DNA of 64,000 nucleotides. Source: Cenococcum geophilum 1.58. Its lineage: Eukaryota > Ascomycota > Dothideomycetes > Gloniales > Gloniaceae. The position numbers and the translations under genes were made by a program. Every line of letters starts with the position of its first letter. Within the stretch, counting starts at the first letter, position 1. This document shows, in pieces, positions 7,220-63,620 of the stretch. The stretch is taken from NCBI GenBank assembly GCA_001692895.1, contig KV748178.1, positions 2,404,536 through 2,468,535 of the forward strand, given 5' to 3'. Under the pieces are notes generated by a model. That model searched no databases, was not told the origin of the DNA, and was given only the letters and a program-made list of their open reading frames with translations.

Positions 7220-7387
7220 CTGGCAACTCTTCTTTTGTAGTTGCTATCTATATATATATACCGCTTAACTAGCGGAATAAAAATTAATCCTCCTTACTTA
7301 CTATTGCCATTATAATATAAGTCTCGCTATCCCAAAATTTGCCTCTTAGCATGTGGTACTTTCTTACTTATAAGTTATAGGTAGGTA

Positions 7388-7534
7388 TCTTATTAGTAGA
7401 GCCGCTAAGGCGCTAGCGGTAAGTAAGCCAATAGTGATTTTCTATCTTAGGGATAGAAAATCCTAATTAGCTAGTTTAAGTTAGGGTTTATAGAATCTAA
7501 CTAATTAAACAACTTTAACCGCTGGTTAAAGTTC
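7388..7534 (-). repeat. Shorter copy of the shared 3' module in copia A
   Basis: On the minus strand it holds both dyads of the 194-bp module seen in copia B and chromovirus C: an AACTTTAACC/GGTTAAAGTT-type dyad at 7511-7533 and a GATTTTCTATC/GATAGAAAATC dyad at 7436-7462. The stretch between them is shorter than in the other two copies. Confidence 0.75.
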
Positions 7535-11442: not shown

Positions 11443-11507
11443 NGGNATNCTAAGATAACCTAGTCCCTTAGGCTNTTCTTATTTTAGTAAGTTTTANTAA
11501 GGCTANN
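11443..11507. other. Cluster of seven ambiguous bases
   Basis: Seven N positions lie within 65 bp inside copia A. A similar cluster occurs in chromovirus D. Isolated N's scattered among called bases suggest conflicting reads from near-identical copies rather than a scaffold gap. Confidence 0.85.
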
Positions 11508-12854: not shown

Positions 12855-13070
12855 TGTTGGTTATATAAGGGGATATCACGTAGCTACGGTTCGTAGATAG
12901 TATAATAATTATTCTATGTTCTTCTTAAAGAAAGGGGTAAGGAACTTAAGGTTCCTCACCACGCTAGTGCCGCGGCGGCACGTGATGGCAACTTGCCGCA
13001 CGTAACGGCAACTTGCCACACGTGACGGCAATATGCCTTATATGGTGACCATTTGCCTTTATTCCCAACA
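12855..13070 (-). repeat. 5' LTR of copia A (216 bp)
   Basis: It begins TGTTGG and ends CCCAACA, and its right flank GTTAT equals the left flank of the other LTR. The palindrome lies at 12936-12960. Confidence 0.9.
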
Positions 13071-21747: not shown

Positions 21748-21920
21748 TGTCGGGAATGAGGCAAGCGGTCGTCACGTGTCGTCACGTGTCGCCGCGGCAC
21801 TAGCGTGGTGAGGAACCTTAGGTTCCTCACCCACCCCCTAATTCTAAACAATAAGCTTTACAACCAACATTTACTGTATCTACTTAAGTAGCATTGGTGA
21901 GTTACCCTATAATACCAACA
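21748..21920 (+). repeat. 5' LTR of copia B (173 bp)
   Basis: TGTCGGG...CCAACA. It contains a palindrome with 12-bp arms around one base at 21807-21831 (GGTGAGGAACCT and AGGTTCCTCACC), preceded by GCCGCGGCACTAGCGTG. The same core is in the copia A LTR. Confidence 0.92.
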
Positions 21921-24900: not shown

Positions 24901-27389
24901 AATTATACTAGATTAATATCTACCTAGGACCCCCTAATTAAATTATTTACAACATAGAAAGGAACTTCTTATCTACAGAGTTTTGGTAATAGGTAAAGGC
25001 AATAGAAATTAAGGTTAAGGAAGTCCCTATTAAGGCATATAATAGCGTTAAAAAAGTAGAATGATACTATATGCCATTATACTAAGCATATAAGATTATT
25101 TCTTCAGAACTAGAGAATGCTAGTAAAGAGCTTATCTTATAGATAGCTATTAAGGCTGTTAATAATTCCGCTAGTCTAGATAGGCTTATACCCACATTAC
25201 TAGTCTTTAGCGCCTACCCTTAAATAACTAACAATTTTCTACTATCTCCCTCTATTATATAACGAGCTAAGGCTATCTATAAAGCAATAAAGGAGGTATA
25301 ACGTCTCTATGCTATACGCTAGGTCAACAACGCACTAGGAATAAGAAATAGCCCAAATACCTTAACTACGCTTGATCTGCCGCTCTAATCTAAGGTACGC
25401 GTATAGCGTAAAAAGGGAGGATAGTTAGGCCTATATAAACTTATTATAATTAATAGTTAAACCTATACTCTCTAAATGCCCTATAGACCCACTTAATTCC
25501 ACTTAACCGTTGTTAAGCCCTACTATAAGAATGACAGCTCTAAGCCTTTATAGGATGCCCCAGAGGATACCCTAGAGGAGAACTATAATTAACGTACTCT
25601 AGAAGGCGACAACGATTCTAATATAATTATAGTAGACGTGCCGTAACTATAACGCGGTAGAGGTCGCCTGAAGGGATTACGGAATTGCTAATATCTTATA
25701 GATTTTAAAGAGCAATTTATTACCGCTATTAAGAGTAGAGACGAGTTATTAATGGCTTTTATAACAGCTAAAGAGAAGAATAACTTTAAGCTTGTAAAAT
25801 AGCTCTAAAAAGAAGGCCATATTATAACTTTAGGAGCTCCTTTTTAAGCATCTAATAAACAGGAGATCGACGGTCTTATTACGAGAGGAGTCTTTAAATT
25901 TGAGAAATATGACCCTACTAAGTTTAATGGAGTTTATATCTTTAAGTTAAGAATAGTTAACGAGATTAAGGGTAAAGCTACTAACGCCCTATTTAAGAAA
26001 TTAAGGCTTGTTATTTAAGGTTATAACAATAATAGTAAGAAGGTAATCCTTACGCAATCTCCTACGATTTAACAAGCTAGTTAGTAAGTTATTATTGCGC
26101 TAGCTCCCTCCTTAATAAAGAGTAGAATAGCAGTTTATTTATAAAATATTACTTAAGCCTACACCCAATTAGAGACGCACCTTTAGCGCTTAATATTAGC
26201 ATATCTTCTAGAGTAAATTCGCTACTAATATCCCGAAGATATAATTATAGTTATCCTTAAGCTATTATACGGAATCGCAGAGGTAGGAACCTATTAGTAG
26301 GCTACTTATAGCAAGCACTATAAAGAGAAGCTTTTAATAACCACTTTTATATTTAATCCCTGCTTCCTTATTATAACTACAGGAACTCTATTTAGAATTA
26401 TTAGCATATAAACTAATAATATAATTATCTTAGGAGACAACTAATTCTTAGCCCTTAAAGAGGATAAGCTAGTAAAGGTAAACCTTATAGCAAAGCTAAA
26501 GGAAAGACTTAATTTAATAACACCATTGCTCTTTAATAGATGCATCCTCTCCCTAAATAAGGATTCTATTGCTTTATGCTAGAAGGGTTAAGGTAAGAAG
26601 ATTAATGTTGTTAATGTTAATTCTTTAAAGTAAGGATATATAGAGCAACGCGCTCGCGGAGCTTATATTGCTTCTATTTATTAACCTAAGGCTTCCTTTA
26701 ATCTCTCTATTACCACCTAATATTAGAAACTAACTAAGGATAATATTCTTAACCTAAATAAGCGTCTTTCCTAGCAAATAAACCATCTTAATTAAGGACT
26801 ACTTTACGTGCCTATTAATCTTCCCACCGCTAAGCTCTTTATATTTATTAATAGATTATTTATAAATAATAAAGATTTTAGCTCCTAGCTAGGATATAAG
26901 ACTATTATTATAAATAAATCTACTAGAGAGAATAATTTTATAATCTACGGTAATCTTATCTATTAAAGCTTAACTAAAAGCAAGCGCGTTACTTAAAGTG
27001 TTTTAGCGTTAGAGATATATAGAATAGTTAGCGGTGTTAATATAGCAATTGCAATTAGAACTACCCTTAAGATAATTATAGATTAACTTAAACTTCCCGC
27101 TATCCCTATAATCGTGTGCACCAACTTATATTCCCTCTATAAGTGTTTAGTTAAGCTTAGTACTATAAAGGAGAAACGCCTTATAATTAATATTATGGCA
27201 CTTTAGCAGTCCTATAAGTATTAAAAACTCTTTAAGATTTAATAGATTAATAGCTAAGATAACCCGGTAGATATAATAACGAAGGTAAACCTAAATAAGG
27301 CACTAGAGACGTTTGTTAATATAAATACTCTATATATATAAGTTAAAGGTTAGGTTAAGAGGGAAATTTAAAGAAATTAAGATCTTATA

Positions 27390-27583
27390 GAACTTTAACC
27401 GCTAGTTAAAGTTGTTTAATTAGTTAGATTCTTGCTAAGAGCGCCACGCCTAATTAATTTGGGTAGCAGTATATGATTCTACCGACGCTATTTATTAAGC
27501 TAGCTAATTAGGATTTTCTATCCCTGGGATGGAAAATCGCTATTAGCTTGGCTAAGAGCGGTAAGCGGAACTAATATCTTTGC
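27390..27583 (+). repeat. 194-bp shared 3' module in copia B
   Basis: It starts with a 24-bp dyad (GAACTTTAACC...GTTAAAGTT) and has a second dyad at 27512-27538 (GATTTTCTATCCC...GATGGAAAATC). It ends with GGTAAGCGGAACTAA and ATCTTTGC. The same order, spacing and total length occur in chromovirus C at 62943-63136. Confidence 0.85.
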
Positions 27584-27715
27584 ATAAACCCGTATAGATA
27601 CCTACGCTATTTCTTCCCCTTTATTTCTTCTTCTTCTTCTCCTTAGCTTTATATCTTTATATAGTAGCAATCTATAAGTGTATATAGATAGCAACTACAA
27701 AAGAAGAGTTGCTAG

Positions 27716-27888
27716 TGTCGGGAATGAGGCAAGCGGTCGTCACGTGTTGTCACGTGTTGCCGCGGCACTAGCGTGGTAAGGAACCTTAGGTTCTTTACCC
27801 ACCCCCTGATTCTAAACAATAAGCTTTGTAACCAACATTTACTGTATCTACTCGAGTAGCATTGGTGAGTTACCCTGTGACACTAACA
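27716..27888 (+). repeat. 3' LTR of copia B (173 bp)
   Basis: Same length as the 5' LTR; the differences I compared are nearly all transitions, as RIP would give. It is followed by ATAGT. Confidence 0.92.
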
Positions 27889-29514: not shown

Positions 29515-31536
29515 TCAGTCGGTAAAGAAATCTTCAGTCATTTCCTTGCCTTGGTCGTAGATGAGTTGCAGTCGCTCTGCAAGTTCCGGAGCCTTTGGTC
29601 TTTTTTTCGGATCAATTTTCAGACAGTCTACAACGAGATTCAACAGCATGATCATAGGATTGTTTTCGCCTTGATCCCTCACTTGCTCTTTTAAGAGTTT
29701 AATCTGATCTACAACCTCTCCGCGAAGTTTTATGTCGCCTTCTTCGTCGCAGCAATAATATCCCTCTGTTGTGACTTGAGGGGCCTGGTAATCAATCGGT
29801 CCAGATCTGTTAGGCATTAGCAATCGACGCTCTAGTAAAAAAAAAATTATCTTTAACCTTCGGTCTGCAAATTCCTCCAACCCGCTTGAACCTTCCTTGA
29901 GCCACACAATGATTTCGAGCATGATACAACCGAATGACCAAATATCATAAGGCCGGGCTTGCCTCCGTTCTTGATTTTTCACGCCTGCTTCGGGAGCGGC
30001 ATACACTGGGCTTCCCTGGATTGACTTCGTTCCGCTGCCGTCAATTTGGTCTCGAACCTTACCCAAACCAAAATCTGCCATGAGTATTCTGCCATATTCC
30101 GCTTCTAAGCCTTCCAGGGTGTCCTGAAGTTCATCGAACAGTAGTAAGTTTTCGGGTTTCAGATCGTGATGGTAACCCGTCTTCGGTGCTCGCCCCAAAG
30201 TATCAGGATGGAGAGTGTCGTCTGTGTGCTCGTGAATATGCTTCAGTCCGTTTGCAAGACCGTGGAGCTGCCCTAACATCCAGACGACGCGCTTTGAACG
30301 GTCCTGTCTTCTTGGATCGATGCGTCTAAAATGTTCCTTCAGATCGCACTTGGCGAAAGGAAATATGAGATAGTATTTTTCGCCATGCTGAAATGCGGCC
30401 AGTAGGCGGATGAGATGACGACGGTTTCCAAACTGCGCGAGTTGAAGCAACATCTTAGCTTCTTTGAACCAGTCTGCCTTGCGTTTTTCAGTCTGTCTAT
30501 TGCACTCTTTTAAGGCCAGGTATGGATTTGGATCCTAACATCATCGCGTTAGCCTTGCCTCTCAGAGATCAATTCCGGGGGTGCTACTGGCACCCACGCT
30601 AGGAAGTTCATATATTTTTTGGTGACTTGGGGCAAGTTTAACTTTATAAACATCACCAAATCCACCAGATCCAACCTTGTGCTTCTCCACGAAAGGGATT
30701 ATCCATTGCGCGTTGTAACGATGTACCGTATTGAGATCACTTGGCTTTGCCCCTTCAAGTTCGACAGCCATAGTCTGCCATTGGAAAGTACATATGTGGT
30801 CATACTGCAGTGGCGAACAAAAAAAAGGCCGATGATCGTCGCTAACATTGAATGGAAGGGCTGCATCATAGATATCATGTTCCCAAAATTGCCTCAGCAA
30901 AACACCAAAGGGCTTAATATCTGCGAGGAGAACAGTAGCCAACAGCTTGAATCCATCACGACTGATTTTGGAGATTTGTTTATGATCCGTTGTTGAAGCC
31001 TCCAGTTTATCAATCTCTCGAAAGAGCTCTGTAATATTTTGTTCGGAAAGAATGTTCCGAAGGACATGGGCAGGAATGAACCATCTGTGTTCCGGATCTT
31101 GCACCTTTGCCTCTATAAGAGCGTTCAATAATCTTTTCCGAACGGTCTTCGGCGGCTGGCTGGTCCGCGAGTAGGTGGACTCAAAAGTAGCATATGTAAA
31201 CTGGCCATTTCGAAGTTCTGTAACGGCTTGGTCGAAGCTGATCGCATTCGCAATCCGACGTGATACTTGGTCACCAATTCCTTCGAGGATGACACGTTGA
31301 CTGCGGAGCAATGATCCACTGGCGCCAAGGTTTCTGATAATGCTATCCCTTTGTTCACACGCTCTCGGATAAGGGCTGGAATCCGGTAAATCCAATCGCC
31401 CGTGGCCGACCATTTGTCTCAGCTCCTGCTCAACGATAACGCATATATCCAAGGATATTTTTTCTTTCGGTAACTTTGGAATCTCTGTAGGAACAGTAGA
31501 GCCAGGACTGTAAATGAGGATTTCCAGTCCCCCCAT
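29515..31536 (-). CDS. Protein kinase-like protein with long N-terminal extension (two exons)
   Basis: Exon 1 is 31536-30598 and exon 2 is 30534-29515, giving about 652 residues from ATG (MGGLEILIYS). The 63-bp phase-0 intron starts GTGGGT, has CTAAC as branch site and ends GTTAG. Residues 1-280 are an unidentified, largely helical extension. The kinase fold then follows: glycine loop GSGGFGDVY at 289, LALKE with the ATP-binding Lys near 322, HHDLKPENLLL with the catalytic Asp near 437, ADFGLGKV with Asp near 467, and YAAPEAG near 491. An HRD-to-HHD change is the only departure in the core motifs, and all catalytic residues are present. The C-terminal lobe includes WSFGCIMLEI. It is probably an active Ser/Thr kinase of a fungus-specific group; the substrate is unknown. 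Splicing joins the glycine loop to the rest of the domain, which supports the model. Confidence 0.88.
30535..30597 (-). other. Intron of the kinase gene
   Basis: 63 bp, GTGGGT donor, GCTAAC branch point 14 nt before the GTTAG acceptor, phase 0. It falls between the glycine loop and the ATP-binding lysine. Confidence 0.75.
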
Positions 31537-46275: not shown

Positions 46276-46468
46276 TGTTACGGAACCCCACCGTAGGGGC
46301 CTCCATAGGAGAGCCCCGTGCTCTTGCGTACACCTCGCGTACAGCTTATATTAGCTACGCGTAGGTATATTACCTCCTTACGCCCTTAACCCTTACGATC
46401 GATCGCGTAACGTCTTGTAGACTCCTTAAATACATACACTCTGTAGCCACTGCCCACGTTCTATAACA
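46276..46468 (+). repeat. 5' LTR of chromovirus D (193 bp)
   Basis: It begins with two short hairpins, CCCCACCGTAGGGG and CTCCATAGGAG. The differences from the 3' LTR that I compared are all transitions. Confidence 0.9.
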
Positions 46469-49400
46469 TTACGTTGCGCCTTTTTACTACTAACGCTTAG
46501 CCTACGACCAATTTTACGTCTTTATAATACTGTAGGCGCTGCCAGAAGTAGCGTGTTTATAAATTACCTTACTTTATACTTCTAAGGAACCTATAATAGT
46601 AAGACGATATTCCTTACTAGCTACTATGTTAAACCTAAAGAATAATCCAATACCTATACTTAACCTACGACGCTGATTAATCCTAGGAGAATTCAATTTA
46701 TTAGCCCTAGCCTTAACCCCTAAGGAGATGGACACTAATAATATCTTATCTTTTATTAACTATATAACTATAGATAAGTAAACAGAAGGGCTATTACCTA
46801 TTAAAATCGAAATATAAGACGCCGAGATGTTTATAAAAATGGTAGCACGAGACCCTAATAAATACTACCGCCTTCTATAGAACTACTACTTAAAGCTTAT
46901 ATAAACTGAGATGCGTACTGCCTAAGATCGCGATATTATTTAAGACCTATAAGCTTATAAGGCACTCGCTAATAACACACGTTAAGAAACTAAAGATAAC
47001 CTCTGTGTGTCTAAACGCGACGTCTAACAATTAAAGAAAAAGGAGATTATACTAATTGCTACAGTTACTAAAAAAGAAGGTATAATTAAATACCTATAAT
47101 CTTAGCTTAATAAGTATATTAGTAATAACGCTAGATACCTCTCTACTATATATAACGCTACCTAAGTCTTTACGCCCCCGGCAACTTCACCTACTTAACG
47201 CTTAATAAAGGGTTAGTATTAAGCAGCTTTACCTAATAGGAACCCCTACTAAAGTAGTAATAATAAAAGCTATAATAATCGGACCTAAACTGCTACTGTA
47301 GGGTCTAATATACGCTACCCTGATCCCCTAGTCTTTTAAGAAGACCGTAAAGAATACAGCTACTAGAAGATGTAAATCCGCAAGAAACTAACTTAAAGCG
47401 CCTACCTTTTTCCTATAGAAGATACTAAGATTAGCTATATTATTGGGCGAATAAAGGGTATACTATTTAACAGACTCTTCGCCTAATAGGAGACTAGTAG
47501 CCCCTAGAAGTGGCAGTTTTACTAAGAAGTCCTTAATAATCTTAACCTAATATACCGCGACTATAACCTATTAGCCACTAACTAAGCTAAACTATGTGCC
47601 CTAAAGATAAGCCCTACCGAATTATTTAATGAGTTCTATGTTAAATTCTAGAAATATACTAAAGCCCTCGCCTAAGACGATACTAAAGACTAGGAGGATC
47701 TCCTTAAAAAAGTTACTTATCGCCTTAGTTACGCAGCCGCTAGCTATAACTATAATAATGTTTATAAGATGGTAGCAGCCCTATAGAAGATTAAATAATA
47801 ACTAAATTAGATTGCTACTGCTAACCTTTATTTAAAGACCTCTCTATAGAAGCCCTCTAGGCCTACTAAACCTATATATACTACTAGAGCTAATATTAAC
47901 CTCTCTATACCAACCTTTTTGTAAAAACTCTTAGACGGAGAGTGTAAGCTACTCTAGAAACTAGGACGCTGCTATAGATGCCATTAAGAAGGCTATTATT
48001 GCGATAACCTAAACTGCCTAATAGCTAGGTTTAGTACCCGCCGCCTAATACCTAACCTAATGCCCCGAATACTAAATATGTTACTATACGCCACTACCGT
48101 ACAAGACGAAGATATAGTAATAGTAGTAGAATTAGATACGGAAGCGAAAAACGCTAAGTCCTAGCCCTAAGTCGCGGGTTAGGACACTTTAATAATAGAG
48201 GGATCTATATATTGGCCTACTTAATAGATAACTTAGTAAAGATAAACGGACGGAAATAGATAGTTTTACTTATAATAGGAACTACTGTTATAAAATAATA
48301 TAAAAGCCGTTCTATAATTAACTGTAGAGCTACTAACTAATTTATAGATACTTAATTTGTGCGTACTTATAACCTACCTACCTTACCCCTTACTAAAGCC
48401 CGCGCCCTATAACTCGCTAACGGTAGTTATACTATATAGAAGATTACCCACGTAGTATAACTCTACTTAGATATAAACGGGCACTAGGAAGAGCTCTAGG
48501 CCTATATTATACTACTTACTAACTACCCTATTATCCTTAGAATAAGCTAGCTTAAATAATATAACCCCGCCATTAACTGGGAAAAGAAAGAAGCAACCTT
48601 TAACTCTAAATACTGTAGAGAGACTTGCCTAGGATATGGCCTAGCCGCCTTTATTTACTCACCAGGATATTAACCTAAGAAACCCCTTATTACCCTACCT
48701 ACGACTAACTACCACTATATAAGTGCTATGGCCTTCTACCGTATAGTATATAGGAAAGGCTGGACCGTTGCTATAGCTTCCTAATTATAACTATATAAGC
48801 TTAATAAAGAATAGGACTATATCCTCTATAGTTAACCTTTTAAAAGATAACGCCCCCGCGGAACTCTATAGACTTTTACCTTTAGACTTTAAGAAGTTTA
48901 TAAAACTTAAAAAAGGACTTACTAATAAAGAACTCCGCAAGCTTCTCCCTAAGAGGTACTATAACTTTATTAATATATGCTTATAAAAGGGCGTAGATAT
49001 ACTCCCCCTATATCGACCTAATAACTATGCTATTAATATTAAATAAGGAAAAATGCTACCTTATAAGAGACCCTACCTAATATTAAAAAATGAACTTTTA
49101 GTTATAAGAAAGTATATTAATAAGCACCTTAATAAAGGGTTTATTCGTCCTAGTATATTACTAGCAGCTGCCCCTATCCTTCTTACTAAGAAGCTAGGAG
49201 GAGGTATTTAATTCTATGTTAACTATAGAGGATTTAACGCTATTATAATTAAAAACTAATACCTAGTACCGCTTATACGGGAGACCCTTAAGTGGCTTAG
49301 CTAAGCTAAAATCTATACTAAGCTTAATATTATCGCCGCCTTTAACTATTTTTAAATACGGGAAGGTAACGAATAGAAAACTATATTTGCATCGCGCTTT

Positions 49401-51179
49401 GGCCAATTTAAATATACCGTTATGCCCTTTAGTATATATAACAGCCTAGGTACCTTCTAAAGCTATATTAATAACGCCTTACGGGACTACCTTAATGACT
49501 TCTGCTCCGCGTACCTGGACGATATACTTATTTATAATAATAACCCTTTTAAGTATACTAAACACGTTTAAAAGGTCCTATAGCGCCTTAGGGATATAGG
49601 ACTTTATATTAATTTAAAGAAATGCGAATTCTTAGTTATAGAAGTAAAATACCTTAGACTAATTGTTACTATTAAGAGTGTCCGTATGGACCCTAAGAAG
49701 GTATATATAATTACTAAATAGTAAGCCCTTAACTGCATTAAGGACGTACAAGCCTTCCTTAGTTTTGCTAACTTCTATTAGAAATTCATATATAACTTCT
49801 TAAGCGTAGTAGTATTACTTATAGCAATAATACGAACAAAGGGCCTTTTTATAAAAGGAAGAAAAACGCACTTATGCTTTACCTAGATGCCTAAATGCGG
49901 GAAGGCGTTCTAAGACCTTAAAAATGCCTTTACTAAAGCACTTATCCTAGCCTACTTTACACCAGGATAATAACTCTATCTTAAAACCGACTCCTTAGAC
50001 CACGTTAACGCAGGCGTCCTTTCCTAAATAGGTGACAACGGTTTCCTTTACCTAGTTGTATTTTACTTGTCTAAGCTTATACTATAAGAGTGTAACTATA
50101 AGATCTATAATAAAGAACTCCTTATAATTATATAAGCGTTTAAAGAATTCTAACCAGAACTCTTTTTAGTAGAGCCTAACTAGCTAACTAAAGTCCTTAC
50201 GGACCATCGCAACCTTAAGTACTTTATAACTATGAAGTAGCTAAACTAACGCTAAGTATATTAGAACGAGTTCCTCTCTAGTTTTAACTTTAAAATTATA
50301 TATAGACTAGGAGTATAAGGTACTAAACCTAATAGCCTAATACGCTGCTTGTAAGACCTTCCTTAGTCTAAAGATAACCCTTATAATTAGTTCCAATAAT
50401 AGACGATTCTAAAAGTATGAAATTTGGCCCTAGGCATACTACCTATAATAGAGCTAACTATACCTTAGCTTTATACCACAGAACTAGAGTTACCCCCTAA
50501 AATTAATAAGCTTATTACTACGGCATATAACACCTCTATTAACTTATTACTGTATTAACTTATTACCGCAAAGACCGCTAGCGCCTGTACGCTACCTACT
50601 AACCTCTAAAGCTTAGGCTAGATTAATATAGCAGCCTTAGAAGTAAAAGAAAATAGGCTCTATTATAGAGGTCGCCTATTTATCCCTAACTTAGAAAATT
50701 TACAACAGTAACTAATCTAAATAGCCCACGACCTCTAATTAAGCGGCTATTTAGGCAGAGGAGGAACCTACGAGCTTCTTAGCCGATACTACTTCTGGCT
50801 AAAAATAATAGACTTAGTTAAACGCTTTATAGGCGCCTGCTACGGTTATAAGCGCGCTAAGGCCTTTAATATAAAGTACTAAGGATTACTATAACCTCTA
50901 CCAGTACCTATATAATGATGGGCAGATATTGCTATAGATTTCGTTATTAACCTACTACTCTATAAATGATACGGCCGTACCTATAAGAATATCCTTATAA
51001 TAATATACCGACTTATAAAAGAGCGCCACTACGTCCTAACCGAAGGCGTAGCCGTTAGTGACGTTACTAACGCCTTTTTTCGCGAAGTTTACTGACTATA
51101 TAGGTTACCTGACTTAATTACGTCTAACTAAGGTATATAATTTAACTCCGATATATAGAGACGAATCTACTAACGCCTT

Positions 51180-51278
51180 NGTATCTCCGTTAAGATATCT
51201 ATATCCTTTTACTATAAAACTNCTNGGTAANNAGAAAACGCTAATNCCAGTATAAAAGCGTACNTATAATAGGTAGTN
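51180..51278. other. Cluster of eight ambiguous bases in chromovirus D
   Basis: Eight N positions within 99 bp of the integrase region. At several of them the sister element E has a base, for example GCCTTGGTATC where D has GCCTTNGTATC. Confidence 0.85.
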
Positions 51279-52197
51279 GCCTATAGTTAAGATAACTGGG
51301 TAGATTACCTCCTACTAGGTAAATTCGCAGCGAATAATTACGTCTTAACTACTATAGGACTTACCCCGTTCTTTACGAATAAGGGTTATTACCCCTAATC
51401 CGGTATAGAACTACTAGAACCTATTAATAAGAAACTGCTATATAGAAAACGCCTTAAGATGCTACTTACCGACCAGTATGCAGACTATATAAAAAACCTA
51501 CTTAACTACTATAAGGGAGAAATGGCCTGGGCCTAAGTAAAGTAGGCCTACTTTGCTAACTGCTATAGAACGCCACCACCGGAGATGCGTGTTAGTGACT
51601 GGGTATAGCTAGATATATATAATATCTCTATATAAAGGCCTATAAAGTCACTTAATTATAAGAACCTTAGCCCCTATTTAATTAAACGAGTTATTAATAG
51701 GGGAGCTATATATAAGCTAGAACTCCCGCCTACCCTAGCTACCCATGGGATATGGCCTGTATTTTACCTATGGCTACTATACCTCCATTAGCCTAACCCC
51801 TTACCGGGGCAGCGATAGCCTAAACCCCTACTAGTACTAATCCAAGATAAGAATAAAGACGAGAACTATGAGGAGTGGATAGTTAAATAAATTATTAACT
51901 CTAAATACTTTGGCAAAGGTAAAGGACGACAGCTTTACTACAGAGCTATATATATAGGATTCGATATAAATTAGCTAAAATAGCAACTATAGGAAGACTT
52001 TAAAAATGTAAAGGATCTAATTAGTGACTTTTACTACGCGAACCTATAGAAACCGGGCCTAAGTAGAGATTTCATACCTAATCCCCTATAGGAGCCCTTA
52101 TAAAATTAAACCATTATATATTGCCACGTAAGGGCAAATTACCGTCAGATTGCGGTAAAGTGTAATTATATAACTGGAATATTGTTAAGATATCTAG

Positions 52198-52221
52198 GAA
52201 CTTTAATTGGCGGTTAAAGTT
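52198..52221 (+). repeat. 24-bp dyad in chromovirus D
   Basis: GAACTTTAATT...GTTAAAGTT followed by TCTAATTAGTCAGATTC, between the chromodomain and the 3' LTR. The second dyad of the 194-bp module is absent here. Confidence 0.75.
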
Positions 52222-52398
52222 ATCTAATTAGTCAGATTCTTAGATGCCAAGCCTTATTATATAACGTTGTTTTAAACCTTTAGCAATACCCCCCCTTTTT
52301 TTTTTCTTTTCTTCTTTTCTATACCTTAAGTGCCCCTTCTATATATATATAGTAACCATAGCGTCGCCGGAGCTCCGCCTCTATAGGAGGGGGGGTAG

Positions 52399-52591
52399 TG
52401 TTACGGAACCCTACCGTAGGGGCCTCTATAGGAGAGCCCCGTGCTCTTATATATACCTCGCGTATAGCTTATATCAGCTACGCGTAGGTATATCACCTCC
52501 TTACGCCCTCGACCCTTACGATCGATCGTGTAACGTCTTGTAGACTCCTCGAATATATACGCTCTGTAGCTACTGCCTACGTTCTATAACA
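52399..52591 (+). repeat. 3' LTR of chromovirus D (193 bp)
   Basis: Pairs with 46276-46468 and is followed by TCCTC, after which the reverse transcriptase of C resumes. Confidence 0.9.
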
Positions 52592-53417
52592 TCCTCACTG
52601 CTAAGCCTAGCGGTAGTATATAAATCTACTATAACTACCAAGGCCTAAACACAGTTACTATTAAAAATTAATACCCACTGCTACTAATCCGCGAGATACT
52701 TAACGTACTTTATAGTGCTAAATACTTTACTAAACTTAATATAATTGCTGCGTTTAACTAAATCCGGATTACGGAGGGCTATAAATGGCTTATAGCATTT
52801 ATTACCCGGTTCGGACTTTATAAAATACTAGTTATACTATTTAGCCTCTATAACGCACCCGTTATATTTTAAAACTATATTAACCATATTTTATATAACG
52901 CCCTTAATAACTACTATACTACTTACCTTAATAACATTCTTATCTTTTCTAAAACACGCGCTAAGCACACTAAGTATGTAAATAAAGTTATCTAAAAACT
53001 CGGTAATACTGGACTTTAGATTAATATTAATAAGTTTAAGTTCTACTCTACTAAAACAAAATACCTTGGCTTAATTATCTTAACTAATAGTATAACTATA
53101 GACCCTAAGAAAATACAGGCCTTATAGGAATAGAAGGACCTGACATTAATTAAAGAACTATAATAATTTCTTAGCTTCGCGAACTTCTATTAACAATTTA
53201 TCTAAGGCTACTCTACTATTACTATACCTATAACAAAACTCCTAAAGAAGGATATTGGATAGCTATGGGGACTAGAATAAGCCAAATTATTTAAGGCCCT
53301 TAAGGGAGCCTTTACTTTAGCACTAGTACTAGCATACTATAACTATATAAAGAAAACAGTGGTAGAGATAGACGCATTAAATTAGGCTTCCGGCAGAGTC
53401 CTTTTCCAGTATAATAA

Positions 53418-53610
53418 TGTCACGGAACCCCACCGCAGGGGCCTCTATAGGAGAGCCCCGTGCTCTCGCGTACACCTCGCGTACAGCTTATGTTAGCTAC
53501 GCGTAGGTATATTACCTCCTTACGCCCTCGACCCTTACGATCGATTGTGTAACGTCTTATAGACTCCTTAAATATATACGCTCTGTAGCCACTGCCTACG
53601 TTCCATGACA
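53418..53610 (+). repeat. 5' LTR of chromovirus E (193 bp)
   Basis: TGTCACGGAACCCC...CATGACA. Same family and length as the LTRs of D. Confidence 0.9.
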
Positions 53611-56600
53611 TTACGTTGCGCCTTTTTACTACTAACGCTTAGCCTACGACCAATTCTACGTCTCTGTAATACTGTAGGCGCTATTAAAAGTAGCGTGTCT
53701 ATAAATTACCTTACTTTATACTTCTAAGGAACCTATAATAGTAAGATAATATTCCTTACTAGCTACTATATTAAACCTAAAGAACAATTTAATACCTATA
53801 CTTAACCTATAACGCTAATCAATCCTAGAAGAATTTAATTTATTAGCCCTAGCCTTAACCCCTAAGGAGATGGATACTAATAATGTCTTATTTTTTATTA
53901 ATTATATAACTACAGACAAGTAAATGGAAGGGCTACTACCTATTAAAATTGAAATATAAGACGCTAAGACGTTTATAAAAATGGTAGCATAAGACCCTAA
54001 TAAATACTACCGCCTTCTATAGAACTACTACCTAAAGCTTATACGAGCTAAGATGCGTACTGCCTAAGATTACGATATTATCTAAGACCTATAAGCTTGT
54101 AAGGCGCTCGCCGATAATATACGTTAAGAAACTAAAGATAACCTCCGCGTATCTAAACGCGACGTCTAATAGTTAAAGAAGAATAAGATTATACTAATTG
54201 CTATAGTTACTAAAAAAGAAGGTATAATTAAATACCTATAATCTTAGCTTAATGAGCATATTTGTAATAATGCTAGATACCTCTTTATTATATATAACGC
54301 CACCTAAGTCTTTACGCCCCCGGCAACTTTACCTACTTAATGCTTAATAAAGGGTTAGCGCTAAGCAGCTTTATCTAATAGGAACCCCTACTAAAGCAGC
54401 AATAATAAAAGCCAAAATAATTGGACCTAAACTGCTATTATAGGGTCTAATATACGCTACTCTGATCCCCTAGTCTTTTAAGGAGACTGTAAGGAATATA
54501 GCTACTAGAAGATATAAATCCGCGAGAAACTAACTTAGAGCGCCTGCCTTTTTCCTACAGAAGATATTAAGATTAGCTATATTATCGGGTGAATAAAGGG
54601 TATACTATTTAATGGACTCTTTACCTAATGGGAGACTAGTGGCCCCTAGAAGTAGTAGTTTCACTAAAAAGTCCTTAATAATCTTAACCTAATATACCGC
54701 GACTATAACCTACTAGCCACTAACCGAGCTAAACTATATGCTCTAAAGATAAGCCCTATTAAATTATTTAATAAGTTCTATATTAAATTATTTAATAAGT
54801 TCTATATTAAATTTTAGGAATATACTAGAGCTCTTACCTAAGACAATACTAAAGACTAGGAGGATCTCCTTAAAAAAGTTACTTATCGCCTTAGTTACGC
54901 AGCCGCCAGCTATAACTATAACAATGTTTATAAGATAGTAGCAGCCCTATAGAAGATTAAATAACGACTAAATTAGATTGCTACTGCTAACCCTTACTTA
55001 AAGACCTCTTTATAGAAGCCCTTTGGGCCTACTAAACCTATATATATTAAACTACCGACGCCTACTACCTTAAGTACTACTAGAGCCAATATTAACCTCT
55101 CTATACTAACCTTTCCGCAAAAACTCCTAAATGGAGAGCGCGAGCTACTCTAGAAACTAGGATGCTGCTATAGATGCCGTTAAAAAGGCTATTATTGCGA
55201 TAACCTAAACTGCCTAATAGCTAGGTTTAGTACCTACCGCCTAATACCTAACCTAATACCCCGAACACTAAATATGTCGCTATATACCACTACCGTATAA
55301 GACGAAGATGTAGTAATAGCAGTAGAATTGGATACGGAAATAGAAAACGCTAAGTCCTAGCCCTAAGTCGCGGGTTAGGACGCCCTAATAATAGAGGGAT
55401 TTATATATTGGCCTGCTTAATAGATAACTTAATAAAGATAAACGGACGGAAATAGATAGTTTTACCTATAATAGGAACTACTGCCATAAAATAATATAAA
55501 AGCTGTTTTATAATTAACTGCGGAGCTACTAACTAATTTATAGATATCTAACTTGTACGTACTTATAACCTACCTACCTTACCCCTTACTAAAGCCCGCG
55601 CCCTATAACTTGCTAATGGTAGTTATACCGCACAGAAGATTACCTATATAGTATAATTTTACTTAGATATAAATGGGTACTAGGAAGAGCTCTGGGCCTA
55701 TATTATACTACTTACTAACTACCCTATTATCCTTAGAATAAGCTAGCTTAAATAATACAACCCCGCCATTAACTGGGAAAAGAGAGAAGTAACCTTTAAC
55801 TCTAAATACTATAGAGAGACTTGCCTAGGATATAGCCTAGCCGCCTTTATTTACTTACTAGGATATTAACCTAAGAAACCCCTTATTATCCCACCTATAA
55901 CTAACTACTATTACGTAAGTGCTGCGGCCTTCTACCGCATAGCATGTAGAAAAGGCTAGACCGTTGCTGTAGCTTCCTAATTATAACTATATAAGCTTAA
56001 TAAAGAATAGGATTATATCCTCTATAGTAATAGGATAGACATAGTTAACCTTCTAGAAGATGACGCCCCTATAGAACTTTACGGACTTTTACCTTTAGAC
56101 TTTAAGAAGTTTATAAAACTTAAAAAAGGACTTACTAACGAAGAACTCCGCAAGCTCCTCTTTAAGAGGTACTATAACTTTATTAATATATGCTTATAAA
56201 AGGGCGTAGATATACTCCCCCCACATTAACCTAATAACTATGCTATTAACATTAAATAAGGAAAAATGCTACCTTATAAGAGACCCTACCTAATATTAAA
56301 AGACGAACTTCTAGTTATAAGAAAGTATATTAACGAGTACCTTAATAAAGGGTTTATTCGTCTTAGTATATTACTAGCAGCTGCCCCTATCCTTCTTGCT
56401 AAGAAGCTAGGAGGAGGTATTTAATTCTATATTAATTATAGAGGACTTAACGCTATTATAATTAAAAACTAATACCTAGTACCGCTTATATAGGAGACCC
56501 CTAAGCGGCTTAGCTAAGCTAAAATCTATACTAAGCTTAATATTATTGCCGCCTTTAACTATCTCTAAATACGGGAAGGTGATAAATAGAAAACCGCATT

Positions 56601-57343
56601 TATATTGCGCTTTAGCTAATTTAAATATACCGTTATGCCCTTTAGCGTATATAACGGCCTAGGCACCTTTTAAAGCTATATTAATAACGCCTTATAGGAC
56701 TACCTTAACGACTTCTGCTCTGCGTATCTAGACGATATACTTATTTATAGTAATGACCCTTTTAAGTATACTAAACATGTTTAAAAGGTCCTATAGCACC
56801 TTAGGGACATAGGACTTTATATTAATTTAAAGAAATGCGAATTCTTAGTTATAGAAGTAAAATACCTTAAACTAATTGTTACTACTAAGGGTGTCTATAT
56901 AGACTCTAAGAAGGTATATATAATTACTAAATGGCAAGTCCCTAACTGCATTAAGGACGTATAAGCCTTTCTTGGTTTCGCTAACTTTTATTAAAAATTC
57001 ATATATAACTTCTTAGGTGTAGTAGCACTACTTATAATAATAATATAAACGAAGGGCCTTTTTACAAAAGGAAGAAAAACGTACCTACGCTTTACCTAGA
57101 CGCCTAAATGCGAAAAGGCGTTCTAAGACCTTAAAAATACCTTTACTAAAGCACCTATCCTAGCTTACTTTACACTAGGATAATAACTCTATCTTAAAAC
57201 CAACTCCTTAGACTATATTAATATAGGCATCCTCTCCTAGATAGGTGACGACGGTCTCCTTTACCTAGTTATATTCTACTTATTTAAGCTTACACTATAA
57301 GAGTGTAACTATAAGATCTATAATAAAGAACTCCTTATAATTA

Positions 57344-58363
57344 GTAGTAGTTCTTTAATTAACGTCTGATACGGATCCTATCTTAGCCCACGCAGACTAC
57401 TCCGTCACAGGGGGGAAAACTTATAATTTACATGAAGAAAACCCTGCAGTTAGGGGAGGAAAAACCCTATAAGCAGCCTCAGTAGGATAAAAAACCCCGA
57501 TTTGCCATGTTTGCACGTAGCAGCGGCCCTGCGGGCCTACTACACGTCCTCCTCCTTAGATGTTTTGAACTCCTTAGGAACCACTGCTTCCTTCTCTAGC
57601 TTATTAAAGCTAGGGTTCACTACGTCCCAGCTAGGCCTTGCTGATCGATTGCTGTGTCTTATTGTCTCTTTGTGTCCCATATCTTGCCCATCCCCTATAT
57701 GCTATCTCTTATGTAGACCACTGCCATATACGCCTTACCTCCCCCCCCCTAGAGCCATTAAAGGCGTAAGGGGGATTCATCCGTTCTAACCACCGTAATA
57801 CTAATAAGCGAGCGGGATATTGTGTTATTTAGGTATCTTTTATGCCTAGGCCCCAGCTAGGCCCTCTCTAAGGGTCACCACTCCGTTAAAAGGAGATAGG
57901 GAAAACCGTGGGTCGCAATCCAAGCTGCTAGGTAGTATTTAGTAGTTGAAAATGGCGAGTGACCGCATGCTCCGCGGGCGACTGCCCTGGGGGTTAGGAG
58001 GGGCCGTATATTTGCTCGTTCGTTTATTCGCTCGTACGCTCGTTTGTCCGTTAATATAAGGTCATTAATGCTTTCCATTAGGGGCTAGGGGATGCTTTTA
58101 AAAGCTGTTTATCCACGTTGGATTACACAGGTGCTTAGTAGGAGAACTAGTGGCTGTATTGTGAAGGGGTACCGTCAGTAGTGGTTTTCGAGATCTCACC
58201 ATCCCATGTAAAAACTTTTCACTACGCCCCACGACGCACACAACCACCAGGTCCTACTTGCACGCGCTATGCAACGTCTCTGCGTTGGCTCTGGGTCTGA
58301 ACTTCAAAGACCCAGGTTCGTAGCCGTCACCACGTACAGGTGCAGAATCCGTTTTCGACGGCC
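57344..58363 (-). mobile_element. Unmutated 1,020-bp retroposed insert in chromovirus E
   Basis: A 15-bp direct repeat, AACTCCTTATAATTA, flanks the segment (57329-57343 and 58364-58378). The same 15-mer occurs once in sister element D at 50116-50130, giving an empty site. A duplication this long is typical of target-primed insertion by LINE machinery. On the minus strand the insert ends in a short ACTACTAC run, like a LINE/SINE 3' tail, so minus orientation is likely. No reverse transcriptase is visible and the longest open frames (95 and 67 codons) resemble nothing known to me. It may be a SINE or a truncated LINE. CpA is frequent, so it arrived after E was mutated. Confidence 0.75.
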
Positions 58364-60445
58364 AACTCCTTATAATTATACGAGCGTTTAAAGAATTCTA
58401 ACTAGAACTTTCCTTAGTAGAGCCTAACTAGCCAACTAAAGTCCTTACGGACTATCGCAACTTTAAGTACTTTATAACTATAAAGTAGCTAAACCAACGC
58501 CAAGTATATTAGAACGAGTTCCTCTCTAGTTTTAACTTTAAAATTATATATAGATTAGGAGTATAAGGTACTAAACCTAATAGCCTAATACGCCGCTTAT
58601 AAGACCTTCCTTAGTCTAAAGATAACCCCTATAATTAGTTCTAATAACAGACGATCCTAAAAGCACGAAATTTGGCCCTAGGTATACTACCTATAATAAA
58701 GCTAACTATACCTTAGCTTTATACCATAGAACTAAAGTTACCTCCTAAAATTAACGAGCTTATTACTACGGTATATGATACCTCTGTTGACCTATTACTG
58801 TATTAACTTATTACCATAAAGACCGCTAGCGTCCGTACGCTACCCACTAACCTCTAAAGCTTAGGCTAGATTAATATAGTAGCCTTAGAAGTAAAAGAGA
58901 ATAGGCTTTATTATAGAGGTCGCCTATTTATCCCTAACTTAGAAAATCTATAACGGTAACTAATCTAAATGGCCTATAACCTCCGATTAAGCGGCCACCT
59001 AGGTAGAGGAGGAACCTACGAGCTTCTTAGCCGATACTACTTCTGGCTAAAAATAATAGACTTAGTTAAACGCTTTATAGGCGCCTATTATGGTTATAAG
59101 CGCGCTAAGGCCTTTAATATAAAGTACTAAGGACTACTGTACCCTTTACTAGTACCTATATAACAATGGGCAGATATTGCTATAGATTTCGTTATTAACC
59201 TACTACCCTATAAACGACACGGCCGTACCTATAAGAATATCCTTATAATAATATGCCAACTTATAAAAGAGCACCACTACGTCCTAACCGAAGGCGTAGC
59301 CGTTAGCGACGTTACTAACGCCTTTTTCCGCGAAGTTTACTAACTATATAGGTTACCTAACTCGATTATGTCTAACTGAGGCATATAATTTAACTCTAAT
59401 GTATAGAAACGAATCTGCTAACGCCTTGGTATCTCCGTTAAGATGTCTATATCCTTCTACTATAAAACTACTAGGTAATTAGAAAACGCTAATGCTAGTA
59501 TAAAAGCGTACCTACGATAAGTAGTCGCCTATAGTTAAGATAACTGGGTAGATTACTTCCTACTAGGTAAATTTGTAGCGAATAACTACGTCTTAACTAC
59601 TATAGGATTTACCCTATTCTTCGCAAATAAGGGTTATTACCCCTAATCCGGTATAGAGCTACTAGAACCTATTAATAAGAAACTGCTATATAGAAAACGC
59701 CTTAAGATGCTACTTGCCAACTAGTATATAGACTGTATAAAAAATCTACTTAACTACTATAAGGGAGAAATGGCCTAGGCTTAAGTAAAGTAGGCCTACT
59801 TCGCTAACCGCTATAGAACGCCACTACTAGAGATGCGTGTTGGTAATTGGGTATAGCTAAATATACGTAATATCTCTATATAGAGGCCTATAAAGTCACT
59901 TAATTATAAGAACCTTAGCCCCTACCTAATTAAATAAGTTATTAATAGGGGAGCCGTATATAAGCTAGAACTCCTACCTGCCCTAGCTACCCGTAGGATA
60001 TAGCCTATATTTTACCTATAGCTACTATACCTTTATTAGCCTAACCCCTTACCGGGGTAGATATAGCCTAAACCCCTACTAGTACTAATTTGAGATAAGA
60101 ACGAAGACGAGAACCATAAGGAGTAGACCGTTAAATAAATTATTAACTTTAAATACTTTAGTAAAGGTAGAGGACAACGGCTTTACTACAGAGCTATATA
60201 TATAGGATTCGATATAAATTAGCCAGAATAGTAATTATAGGAAGACTTTAAAAATGTAAAGGATCTAATTAGCGACTTTTACTACGCGAACCTATAGAAA
60301 CTGGGCCTAAGTAGAGATTTTATACCTAATCCTCTATAGGAGCCCTTATAGAGTTAAACCGTTATATATTACTACGTAAGGGCAAATTGCCGTTAGATTG
60401 CGGTAAAGTGCGATTACGTAGCCGGAATATTGTTAAGATGTCCAG

Positions 60446-60469
60446 GAACTTCGACCGGTGGTTAAAGTT
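60446..60469 (+). repeat. 24-bp dyad in chromovirus E
   Basis: GAACTTCGACC...GTTAAAGTT followed by TCTAATTGGTCGGATTC; intermediate in mutation between the solo LTR copy and the D copy. Confidence 0.75.
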
Positions 60470-60633
60470 ATCTAATTGGTCGGATTCTTAGATGCTAAGC
60501 CTTATTATATAACGTTGTTTTAAACCTTTAGTAATACCCCCCTTTCTTCTTTTTTATACCTTAAGTGTCCCTTTTATATGTATATAGTAACTACAGCGTC
60601 GCCGGAGCTCCGCCTCTATAGGAGGGGGGGTAG

Positions 60634-60826
60634 TGTTACGGAACCCCACCGTAGGGGCCTCCATAGGAGAGCCCCGTGCTCTTACGTACACCTCGCGTAC
60701 AGCTTATGTCAGCTACGCGTAGGTATATCACCTCCTTACGCCCTCGACCCTTACGATTGATCGTGTAACGTTTTATAGACTCCTTGAATATATACGCTCT
60801 GTAGCTACTACCTACGTTCCGTGACA
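60634..60826 (+). repeat. 3' LTR of chromovirus E (193 bp)
   Basis: Pairs with 53418-53610 and is followed by AATAA, after which the RNase H of C resumes. Confidence 0.9.
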
Positions 60827-62942
60827 AATAATAACGGAAAATTAAAACTGGTTGTATTTTTCTCTATAAAGTACTTTACGCTAGAGTATAACTACAAGAT
60901 CTACAATAAAGAACTCTTAGCTATTATTAAGGCTTTAAAGGAATGGCGTCTTAAGCTGTAAGGGATTAAGGAGCTGTTTAAAATTATTACCAACTATAAG
61001 AACCTACAGACGTTTATAACTACTAAGTAGCTAAACTAGTACTAAGTCTGGTAGGCAAAGTTCCTTTTATAGTTTAACTTTATAATTATATATAGACCTA
61101 GTAGTAAAGCCATACTCCCTAATGCCCTAAGCTGGCTACTAGGAATAAGGCCTAAGGACACTAATAATAAACGCCTCCACTACTAAGCCTAAGTTATTAT
61201 ACTACCCCAGAAAGTTAACCCTATAATCTTAGAAGAATTACTATACAAGTCCCGTAGCTTTAACGACGCGGAGTTTATAGCCACTCTAGACCCTAAAATA
61301 GCCGAAAAATTACTAAATAAGTTAATCTAGCTGGGATACTAGGAGAACAAACTCGCAAAAGATATAATAGTAGCCCTATATAATTAGAAAGCTCACTATT
61401 AGCTAAAGAAGATTAGGAAATTACTTTGTTACAATAAGTTAGAATATAGTATTATTAACGAATAGATCTACTTCCACTAATATCTCTTTATCCCTAACGC
61501 CCTAGACCTCCACCTAAAAGTTACCCATCGCTCTTATAGTAGTGGCCCCGCTAGTTACCCCAGCTAGGTTAAGACTCTTAACCTCTTAAACTGAATATAC
61601 TAGTAGCTAGGAATCTCCTAGTTTACGGCTACCTTTATTAAAGACTGTGCCCTATACTTTTGTACTAAGACCCCCTATTCTACCCCGCCCGGTTTCCTAA
61701 AGCTACTAGAATTACCCACCCGCCCGTAAACCGATATCTTAATTAACTATATTACAACGCTGCTAGTATGCTAACGCTATAGTAAGGTATATAAATATAT
61801 CCTTATTATTATAGACCGCCTAACTAAAATATAATACCTTATTCTAGTAATAGGACTCTTAATAGAGGAGCTAGTTAATGGCTTTATTAATAACGTGTAT
61901 AAGCTCTATAGTACACTAAGCACAATTATCTCCGATTGCGGTATATAATTTATTAGTAACTTCTAGTAACGACTAAATAAACGCCTTAAGATAACCTTAT
62001 AACTAAGCTTAGCCTAGTACCTAGAAATAGACGGCTAAACTAAAATTATTAACGCTGCCGTAAATAAATACCTTTATACTTTTATTAGCTTTATATAGAA
62101 CAACTGGGTTAACTACCTACTGCTTACTAAGTTTGCTATAAATAACTAAGTCAACGAGAGTATAGGCATCTCCCCGTTTTTTGCAAACTATGGCTTTAAC
62201 CCTCGCCTTAGAATTAAGCCTACTAGCCCCTGTTTACTAACACTATCAGTATAAGTAAAGAAGGAGTTCTTCCGCGTAGACTCTGTGGCTAACCGCTTTA
62301 AGCGAATATTAATATAGTTTAAGGCCCTAGCCCGGATTTTATAATAACGCTATAAAGATAATACTAATACCTATAGGGATAAGAGCGTGTTATTCTACGA
62401 AGGCGATATAGTTATAGTTAGCTTAAAAAATATAAAGATAAATAAACCTAAGAAGAAATGGGACGACAAATAGGACGGCCCATACCCCGTACTCGCAGTA
62501 TACTAAGGGGCAGTTATAGTAGACCTTCTAGACCATATCTAAGTAAATAAATCCTTTTATATATCTAAGGTCCGCCTTTAGGCTGCTAAAAAGATCCCTA
62601 GCTAAGCAAATATTAATACTATAGAGTATTATAATATACAAGAACGAGTAGCAGAGAGAGATAATAACAGCAATATAGAAGATAAATGGGAGTTTAATAA
62701 AATCCTTAATATACACGACGAAGACCCCTAGGGCCTAACTTATAAGATTAAATAGAAATATTATAAGGATATAACCTAGCAGCTAGAGGAAGACCTAAAG
62801 GGTTATAAATAAGCTGTATAGCGCTTTTATAAGCAACACCCTAAGAAGCTCAGACCCCTAGACTAGGTATAAGATAAGGAAAAGTTACGCTAAGGTCACA
62901 GTCGACCACCGTATTAAAATTTGTGGTAGTTAAGATGTTATA

Positions 62943-63136
62943 GAACTTTAACCAGCGGTTAAAGTTGTCTAATTAGCTAAATTCTCGCCAAGAAACGCCA
63001 CACGGATTAATTTGGGTGGTAGTATAGAGTTCTACTAACCTTACTTACTAAACTAACCAATCAGGATTTTCCATGCCCGGTATAGAAAATCGCTATTAGC
63101 TTAGTTAAGGGCGGTAAGCGGAACTAACATCTTTGC
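62943..63136 (+). repeat. 194-bp shared 3' module in chromovirus C
   Basis: The first dyad is at 62943-62966 (GAACTTTAACC...GGTTAAAGTT) and the second at 63065-63091 (GATTTTCCATG...TATAGAAAATC). It then reads CGCTATTAGCTTAG, GGTAAGCGGAACTAAC and ATCTTTGC. The module has the same length and 98-bp spacing between dyads as copia B. Confidence 0.85.
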
Positions 63137-63222: not shown

Positions 63223-63409
63223 TGTTACGGCACTGACCTAACGCATACTATCTTATACTGTCTCGTACTATTTCCTACTATTAGCTAGCCTACCACTAGC
63301 GACTTAGCGGCCGGCCCTACTATTTATATACAATACCCCCTTTCCACCTTCTTCCCCTCTTCATACCATAACGTAGTTATTTAGTCTACTTTATTGCAGC
63401 ACTGTGATA
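63223..63409 (+). repeat. 3' LTR of chromovirus C (187 bp)
   Basis: TGTTACGG...TGTGATA. Same length as the 5' LTR and followed by TAAGG. Confidence 0.92.
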
Positions 63410-63410
63410 T

Positions 63411-63620
63411 AAGGCGCCTTAGTTACTATAGGGGTGAATATATAAGATATAAGGCGCCTTAGTTACTATAGGGATAAATATATAATATGCGAGGCGCCTT
63501 AGTCACTATAGGGGCGGATATATATATAAGGCACCTTAGTTACTATAGGGGTAAATATATAATATATAAGGCGCCTTAGTTATTATAAAGGGATCTATAG
63601 TAGTAACCAAGGCGCCTTAT
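63411..63620 (+). repeat. 40-bp tandem array with an inverted end copy
   Basis: Five units start at 63411, 63451, 63491, 63528 and 63568. Each opens with the palindrome AAGGCGCCTT (or one change from it) followed by AGTTACTATAGGG and an AT-rich tail. The last part (about 63594-63620) is inverted: CTATAGTAGTAACCAAGGCG. Chromovirus C inserted at the very start of the first unit. Confidence 0.85.

Follow-up and report, generated by a model that had tools for sequence, protein, structure and literature searches.

A non-coding cassette is shared, genome-wide, by LTR retrotransposons of the Ty1/copia and Ty3/gypsy superfamilies in Cenococcum geophilum. These two superfamilies are generally regarded as distinct lineages without common non-coding sequence. 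Tentatively, we regard recombination between elements, combined with selection on a short DNA element, as the best reading of this sharing.

A non-coding block common to copia and gypsy elements

The window analysed here is a stretch of 64,000 nucleotides. The following retrotransposons in it carry the cassette:

7004-13070, minus strand: copia A element, 5-bp duplication ATAAC, ends read by eye
21748-27888, plus strand: copia B element, 5-bp duplication ATAGT
42568-63409, plus strand: gypsy C element, 5-bp duplication TAAGG, interrupted by the D elements nested in it
about 46276-52592 and 53415-60826: gypsy D copies 1 and 2, nested inside gypsy C, about 90% identical to each other

Copia A and copia B have the TGT...CA LTR ends and 5-bp target duplication that characterise GalEa elements; in detail, the final bases are ACA in copia B, and ACA and ATA in the two LTRs of copia A. 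Right behind the 5′ LTR, copia B contains CTAATTAGT, which is sequence 1 of the GalEa Conserved Hairpin Site (21921-21929), and copia A contains CTAATTAAT, one transition away from it. Pfam searches of stop-free pieces of copia A, copia B and D gave no meaningful match; certain pieces of copia A and B were recognised by eye as what we take to be reverse transcriptase and RNase H. Gypsy C belongs to Ty3/gypsy according to an RT_RNaseH_2 match at 60827-60958 (E 7.1e-8), and it also contains a chromodomain-like piece at about 62606-62728 that was seen by eye and for which Pfam returned no match. The published genome of the species comprises 177.57 Mb, of which 10.4% is GalEa (PMC5445492).

Apart from the cassette, the region between the two D copies (52593-53414) contains pieces that resemble the reverse transcriptase of gypsy C by eye, and tandem repeats with a unit containing GGCGCCTTAGTTACTATAGG occupy 63407-63587, at the end of the gypsy C 3′ LTR and past it. 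Long open frames resembling host genes also lie amid the repeats, encoding a HET-domain protein (3024-5183; 74% identical to its best named relative, from Lepidopterella palustris, and 96% to a JGI sequence), ankyrin repeats (19773-20591) and a protein kinase (29515-30534).

The initial annotation had described one 194-bp module in both copia B and gypsy C. Both copies are indeed present, as 27390-27583 and 62943-63136 align without gaps over 194 columns, of which 151 are identical (46/55 inside the two dyads and 105/139 outside them). The two non-dyad segments show 68% and 91% identity, far above the mean of 32% and 39% and the maximum of 48% and 55% obtained with 100 dinucleotide shuffles per segment. 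The 43 differences comprise 30 transitions and 13 transversions. With blastn, the homology extends beyond 194 bp to 221 columns at 79.6% identity. The shorter copy suggested for copia A was likewise recovered; it is the same block with about 50 bp absent internally, and this short form is typical of the family, as all 29 other relatives fetched (L040-L068) match it over 145 or more of its 147 bases. The blocks and their second dyad lie as follows:

27364-27583, plus strand: shared block of copia B (GalEa-like), between coding region and 3′ LTR, from blastn
62917-63136, plus strand: shared block of gypsy C (chromovirus-like), between coding region and polypurine tract, from blastn
7388-7534, minus strand: short block of copia A, the family form in L039-L068
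27511-27539, plus strand: dyad 2 of copia B, motif match
63064-63091, plus strand: dyad 2 of gypsy C, motif match
7436-7463, minus strand: dyad 2 of copia A, motif match

Dyad 1 also precedes the 3′ LTR in both gypsy D elements, at 52198 and 60446, which the initial annotation had not mentioned. Its ten matches in the window represent five sites read on both strands, with a shuffled expectation of 0.00. The motif scan of the window gave no dyad 2 match at the core of gypsy D copy 1. In copia A, copia B and gypsy C, the 5-bp target duplications lie outside the LTRs, so that the block is part of each element itself, and the insertion of one element into a remnant of the other is excluded. The claim that two superfamilies share this sequence without an ancestral reason is upheld.

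Copies in the genome and the elements that carry them

The assembly (177,193,698 bases in 162 contigs) was searched with several patterns. A RIP-tolerant form of the dyad gave 3,383 matches (1,686 and 1,697 by strand, some sites being counted on both), compared with a single match for the reversed control (1 and 0); in the first 3.88 Mb of contig C1, the 100 matches listed correspond to 98 distinct sites. The exact mutated dyad followed by TTAG matched 661 times in the forward and 1,100 times in the reverse direction, again with some sites twice, and a flank pattern that leaves the dyad free matched 2,100 times (1,063 and 1,037); both controls gave 0. The unmutated dyad was found in 46 matches at 45 distinct sites (control 0), and G and C flank its centre in 42 of the 46. 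Similarity to the three window blocks yielded 2,559, 3,228 and 2,658 candidates, of which 40 each were scored. The genome-wide search for the module thus returned thousands of copies, with controls near zero. The AT-rich and heavily mutated elements and nested insertions of the window might have pointed to an assembly or nested-insertion artefact, or to a chance likeness of AT-rich sequences. The shuffle controls, the duplications flanking the elements and the thousands of copies refute this, and we give it a negligible chance.

For classification, 100 sites were fetched, 78 from the 100 matches listed for the mutated dyad with TTAG, where some sites appear twice and from which several sites known from the block-similarity searches were set aside, and 22 from the 45 unmutated sites. 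These sites fall into about nine groups, namely two copia, five gypsy, one further LTR group and one unclassified. The 78 mutated sites and the five window copies formed 11 upstream clusters, including three singletons (L072, L087 and L113). L087 and L113 join other groups through their downstream side; for L072, a match to L161 was seen by eye, and its alignment with the L079 group spans 276 columns. Grouped by eye, the 22 unmutated sites comprise nine of the copia group LTR-S (L156 and L158 as partial matches), two copia A, four L081 gypsy, three L076 gypsy and one relative, L174, and one each of D, L079 and L072.

In copies of C, D, L071, L076/L174 and L079/L072 that were read far enough, the core is followed, by eye, by a polypurine tract and an LTR start like TGT(A/T)ACGG. 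Assignment to gypsy was based on RT_RNaseH_2 for C and L071, on a match 1.9 kb upstream of L139 for L076, on matches near two copies for L081, and on similarity to C and inspection by eye for D. The L079/L072 group was placed as an LTR element from its polypurine tract and LTR start, and the L101 group is the unclassified one. On C36, C5 and at C2:2716094, the dyad is preceded at a distance of about 1.9 kb by an RT_RNaseH_2 match of like orientation, so that the cassette is in sense to the genes. In the L081 group, it lies on the opposite strand at a distance of about 2.8-2.9 kb on C11 and at C2:2678485, where the cassette is antisense. These domains and dyads were joined by eye among the 150 scored matches listed per family, as examples rather than a full count. 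A strictly sense orientation was considered and dropped, since LTR-S and the L081 group carry the cassette in antisense. Among well-scoring reverse transcriptases, absence of the cassette is frequent: among the matches listed in the first 3.88 Mb of C1, 0 of ten RT/RNase H matches had a sense copy within 8 kb downstream, and one of the ten, an RVT_2 match, had a cassette on the opposite strand 4.6 kb away.

The LTR-S group carries the cassette inside the LTR. L154 is a solo LTR of 180 bp with TG...CA ends and the duplication GAAGC on both sides; on its sense strand, CCAAT is found at position 72, the dyad at 82-104 and TATATAG at 127. Loci L159, L160, L162 and L173 run on into CCCTCCCTTAAGC, the reverse complement of a polypurine tract located before the LTR on the other strand. 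The copia assignment comes from RVT_2 matches between or beside unmutated dyads, joined to them by eye and running opposite to the core, at C82:263737-264435 (dyads at 262440 and 268164), C81:587708-588403 (dyads at 584282 and 589677) and C21:1657826 (dyad at 1655639). The cassette thus sits in the U3 of LTR-S, the probable promoter region, in the order CCAAT, dyad, TATA, which favours an activator acting at the DNA level.

The initial annotation had also considered the capture of a small mobile element. A MITE-like or fold-back element that inserted independently into many retrotransposon 3′ ends would fit the high copy number, the palindromes and the presence of both orientations. However, each of the 100 sites sampled has flanks that recur in other repeats, leaving no solo core among them by this measure. 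Inspection by eye revealed no terminal inverted repeat that the groups have in common, and all of them carry the cassette towards the 3′ end. The one solo unit encountered with its own duplication is the LTR-S solo LTR, which holds the block in its U3. A free-standing mobile element is thus unsupported, and we rate it as very improbable. A Helitron carrier, suspected from a Pif1 sequence upstream of the core in L148, was rejected as well, as two more copies place the start of the shared repeat about 400 bp upstream of the dyad and so exclude the Pif1 gene. The group of L148 is gypsy-like, given the gypsy RNase H on the opposite strand near two copies. The Pif1 2B-domain piece itself (L148:2061-2258, E 2.5e-11) is perhaps a Helitron remnant beside an L081-group copy.

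An invariant core within mosaic flanks

The part of the block that is common to all groups is a core of about 51 bp. In unmutated copies it consists of a perfect 11-1-11 dyad, AACTTCGACCG-N-CGGTCGAAGTT, and of CTGATTGGTCAG, a small palindrome with a CCAAT box (CTGACCAATCAG on the other strand) at a fixed spacing from the dyad. In the window, the cores are located at:

27381-27431, plus strand: core of copia B, with dyad 1 at 27390-27413 plus GTTTAATTAGTTAGATTC, from R/Y conservation in 13 groups
62934-62984, plus strand: core of gypsy C, with dyad 1 at 62943-62966, from R/Y conservation
7493-7543, minus strand: core of copia A, with dyad 1 at 7511-7534, placed by analogy, the related copy L166 being in the R/Y comparison
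52189-52239, plus strand: core of gypsy D copy 1, before its 3′ LTR
60437-60487, plus strand: core of gypsy D copy 2, before its 3′ LTR

The comparison of 13 groups was made in a purine/pyrimidine (R/Y) code, which ignores RIP-like transitions. Invariant columns make up 23/24 of the dyad, where the centre alone is free, 17/18 on its 3′ side and 7/12 on its 5′ side, with the reservation that 11 of the 13 rows came from a dyad pattern, which favours conservation of the dyad. Farther out, 0/42 columns beyond (14 + 28) and 0/33 before (13 + 20) are invariant. Most sites were picked by a dyad pattern, which inflates dyad conservation; the block-similarity and dyad-free searches avoid this bias. No dyad transversion was found in the 68/68 loci identified by whole-block similarity to the three window blocks. 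Among the matches listed for the flank pattern in the first 3.88 Mb of C1, the span was exactly 49 bases in 58/58 sites, with 20 other lengths allowed, and the RIP-tolerant dyad was present in 55 of the 58. This sharply bounded invariant block of 51 bp with its fixed spacing supports the selected cis signal that had been proposed among several explanations.

Mutations within the dyad are almost exclusively transitions. In 99 of the 100 matches listed for the dyad-free pattern, 427 transitions and 2 transversions from the unmutated form were counted over 2,277 cells, and the central base is G in 56 copies and C in 41. In the two TTCGA CpGs (dyad positions 7-8 and 18-19), every one of the four bases is changed in 81-91 of the 99 copies. 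By comparison, the CpGs of CCG-N-CGG (positions 11-15) carry a transition in just 13-27 of the 99. Either protection or a preference of the RIP-like process for certain sequences may explain this contrast.

At the four variable pairs of the stem, 91, 90, 82 and 75 of the 99 copies retain pairing, compared with 89.8, 87.5, 83.6 and 75.5 expected for independent arms, so that stem covariation shows nothing clear past independence. The perfect AACTTTAACC/GGTTAAAGTT hairpin is a RIP-like product of a symmetric sequence. Since the arms of mutated copies pair about as often as independent arms would, this hairpin does not argue for RNA structure. The RNA structure named in the initial annotation is weakened accordingly: the hairpin follows from RIP-like mutation of a symmetric DNA palindrome.

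Of the 22 unmutated sites fetched, 13 have a complete CCAAT sequence, read as ATTGG immediately 3′ of the dyad; the other sites may have lost it by mutation, or may never have had it. Seven of the 22 (L161, L164-L167, L171 and L174) contain a YACGTR motif (for example CACGTG or TACGTA) no more than 45 nt 5′ of the dyad, which is a possible candidate for a third factor site.

Around the core, the 194-bp block has a mosaic structure. The 13 groups form 78 pairs, and every pair has the core in common, over at least 45 columns, where up to nine copy pairs were aligned per pair of groups and the best length was taken. Related groups are alike over most of their sequence, as in copia A-copia B (443 columns), L079-L072 (276) and L076-L174 (254). 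Some unrelated pairs also share more than the core, namely copia B-gypsy C (222 columns), copia A-gypsy D variant (182), copia A-gypsy C (177), copia B-D variant (175), copia B-L071 (165), L071-L081 (161) and copia A-L071 (153), although the longer L071 figures are upper values, because the dyad 2 palindrome lets alignments pass through an inverted block. Copia A and the L076 gypsy share 100 columns at 87% identity, of which 42 nt lie upstream. The dyad 2 block varies in orientation relative to dyad 1: positions 452-557 of the L081 group match both gypsy C and copia B in the opposite direction, whereas the match to L071 runs in the same direction. Within the stretch read, dyad 2 was detected in 42 of 105 sites scanned (33 in one orientation, 6 in the other and 3 unassigned), a count that misses diverged forms. 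In the copia A loci L069 and L167, a polypurine run stands right behind the core, as it does before the LTR in the L076 gypsy, and this is possibly a captured gypsy 3′ end. These mosaic flanks support recombination between retrotransposons, another explanation considered at the outset. For the D variant L113, it was suspected that the dyad 2 block had inserted as a clean event; this was rejected, as by eye the flanks are replaced and not merely interrupted.

The mosaic flanks of many lengths would also be expected if 3′ untranslated pieces were repeatedly copied between co-packaged RNAs and became common by chance along with successful families, without any function. Consistent with such neutral passengers, other small palindromes are shared too, namely dyad 2 and, by eye, GCTAGCGCCTTAGCGG-like ones, and elements that score well can lack the core. 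However, R/Y invariance in 40/42 columns from the dyad through 18 nt beyond it gives the conserved part sharp edges, and the length is constant in the 58 sites checked among the matches listed. Both features are hard to obtain without selection or a very recent spread, and we consider a functionless core unlikely. The GCTAGCGCCTTAGCGG-like palindromes, as seen by eye, lie in the copia A 3′ region (7388-7440), the gypsy C LTR (63223-63405) and LTRs of the L079 group (L079 and L109).

Possible function and relation to known elements

Our tentative proposal, which we rate as possible rather than probable, is that a composite non-coding cassette is exchanged among LTR retrotransposons and that its core acts as a DNA-level upstream activating element. 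A host dimeric factor would bind the dyad and a CCAAT-binding complex would bind beside it, and both would raise retrotransposon transcription. The core sequence presumably fits the CCAAT-binding complex, and we assume that CCG-N-CGG resembles the sites of fungal zinc-cluster factors. The unit would act from the U3 promoter in LTR-S and from between the last gene and the polypurine tract in the other families. The most likely route of copying between families would be a switch of template while co-packaged RNAs are reverse transcribed, or else recombination between copies, and such copying would carry along flanks of varying length, the 194-220 bp of copia B and gypsy C being one such piece. 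At the level of sequence, the LTR-S layout points to a promoter-type DNA element exchanged between families. The occurrence of the cassette in both orientations and of an inverted dyad 2 block is what a DNA element tolerates, although orientation cannot separate DNA from RNA for the dyad alone, because the dyad reads alike on both strands. The activator reading is strained by the position of the cassette, which in most groups lies at the end of the element far from the 5′ LTR promoter.

A signal at the RNA level is plausible, if on the unlikely side. Here, the dyad would pair two RNAs, or a 3′ hairpin would aid packaging, stability or export. Folding of the core gives -19 kcal/mol (z -2.4), a value equalled or bettered by 8 of 200 shuffles, and a cofolded pair of 24-mers reaches -37.6 kcal/mol compared with -13.3 kcal/mol for the single hairpin. 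In every group with a readable layout the cassette would be located towards the 3′ end of the genomic RNA, and either of its sites, the U3 or the interval from the last gene to the polypurine tract, fits such a role. In contrast, pair retention in the 99 copies stays close to independence, slightly above at two pairs and slightly below at two, and no Rfam match was returned for nine sources at E up to 1 or for six sources at E up to 2. Furthermore, the G and C on either side of the centre are preserved, even though a 3-nt RNA loop would leave them unpaired. A three-way-junction RNA suspected by eye was not reproducible over 23 folded sequences. As a variant, the shared 23-nt dyads might serve as a common RNA pairing site across families, whereby copia and gypsy RNAs would be co-packaged and swap their 3′ ends through template switching, and the palindrome would drive its own spread; this is distinctly improbable.

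Other known signals offer partial parallels. The motif s2m is a structured 3′-end RNA motif common to unrelated families of positive-strand RNA viruses. The cassette is similarly a single 3′ non-coding module across unrelated genomes, but no structural covariation was detected in it. Palindromes have been reported or proposed as dimer contacts of Ty1 and Ty3 RNA, and these resemble the cassette as self-complementary stretches of genomic RNA (PMC4974528, PMC11381356). Those of Ty3, like those in the Ty1 model, are short and located 5′ (PMC11381356), and the relevant passages of both papers make no mention of sharing between superfamilies. The palindromic repeats and polypurine tract-flanking repeats of plant Sireviruses are likewise conserved non-coding palindromes in diverged LTR retrotransposons, and they lie partly upstream of the LTR TATA box, as here; they are described for one plant copia genus, unlike the cassette (PMC2829016).

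A further parallel is the GalEa Conserved Hairpin Site, a palindromic non-coding signal common to distant families within one species, which takes the place of the primer binding site at the 5′ end (PMC5445492). The sequence CTAATTAGT from this site also occurs inside the present core in many mutated copies. In contrast to that site, the cassette lies near the 3′ end or in U3 and not directly after the 5′ LTR, has a different dyad of 23 bp and is also found in Ty3/gypsy. A literature search judged by titles, abstract starts and some passages revealed no description of the module, and among the 20 papers listed, of 182 that contain any of four 10-mers, none was a transposon paper by title. The cassette belongs with the known cis-elements of retrotransposons, rather than being a new type of mobile unit.

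The presence of the cassette in about nine groups of both superfamilies means that the retrotransposons of one genome trade 3′ ends, retaining one short element as the sequence around it changes. Repeat annotation relies on sequence similarity to merge or split families, and could be misled by shared pieces of this kind. The cassette also offers a ready test of whether selection or the mechanics of copying shapes the non-coding regions of retrotransposons. Combined, these observations suggest that a useful control sequence can be passed between jumping genes that have no close common ancestor.
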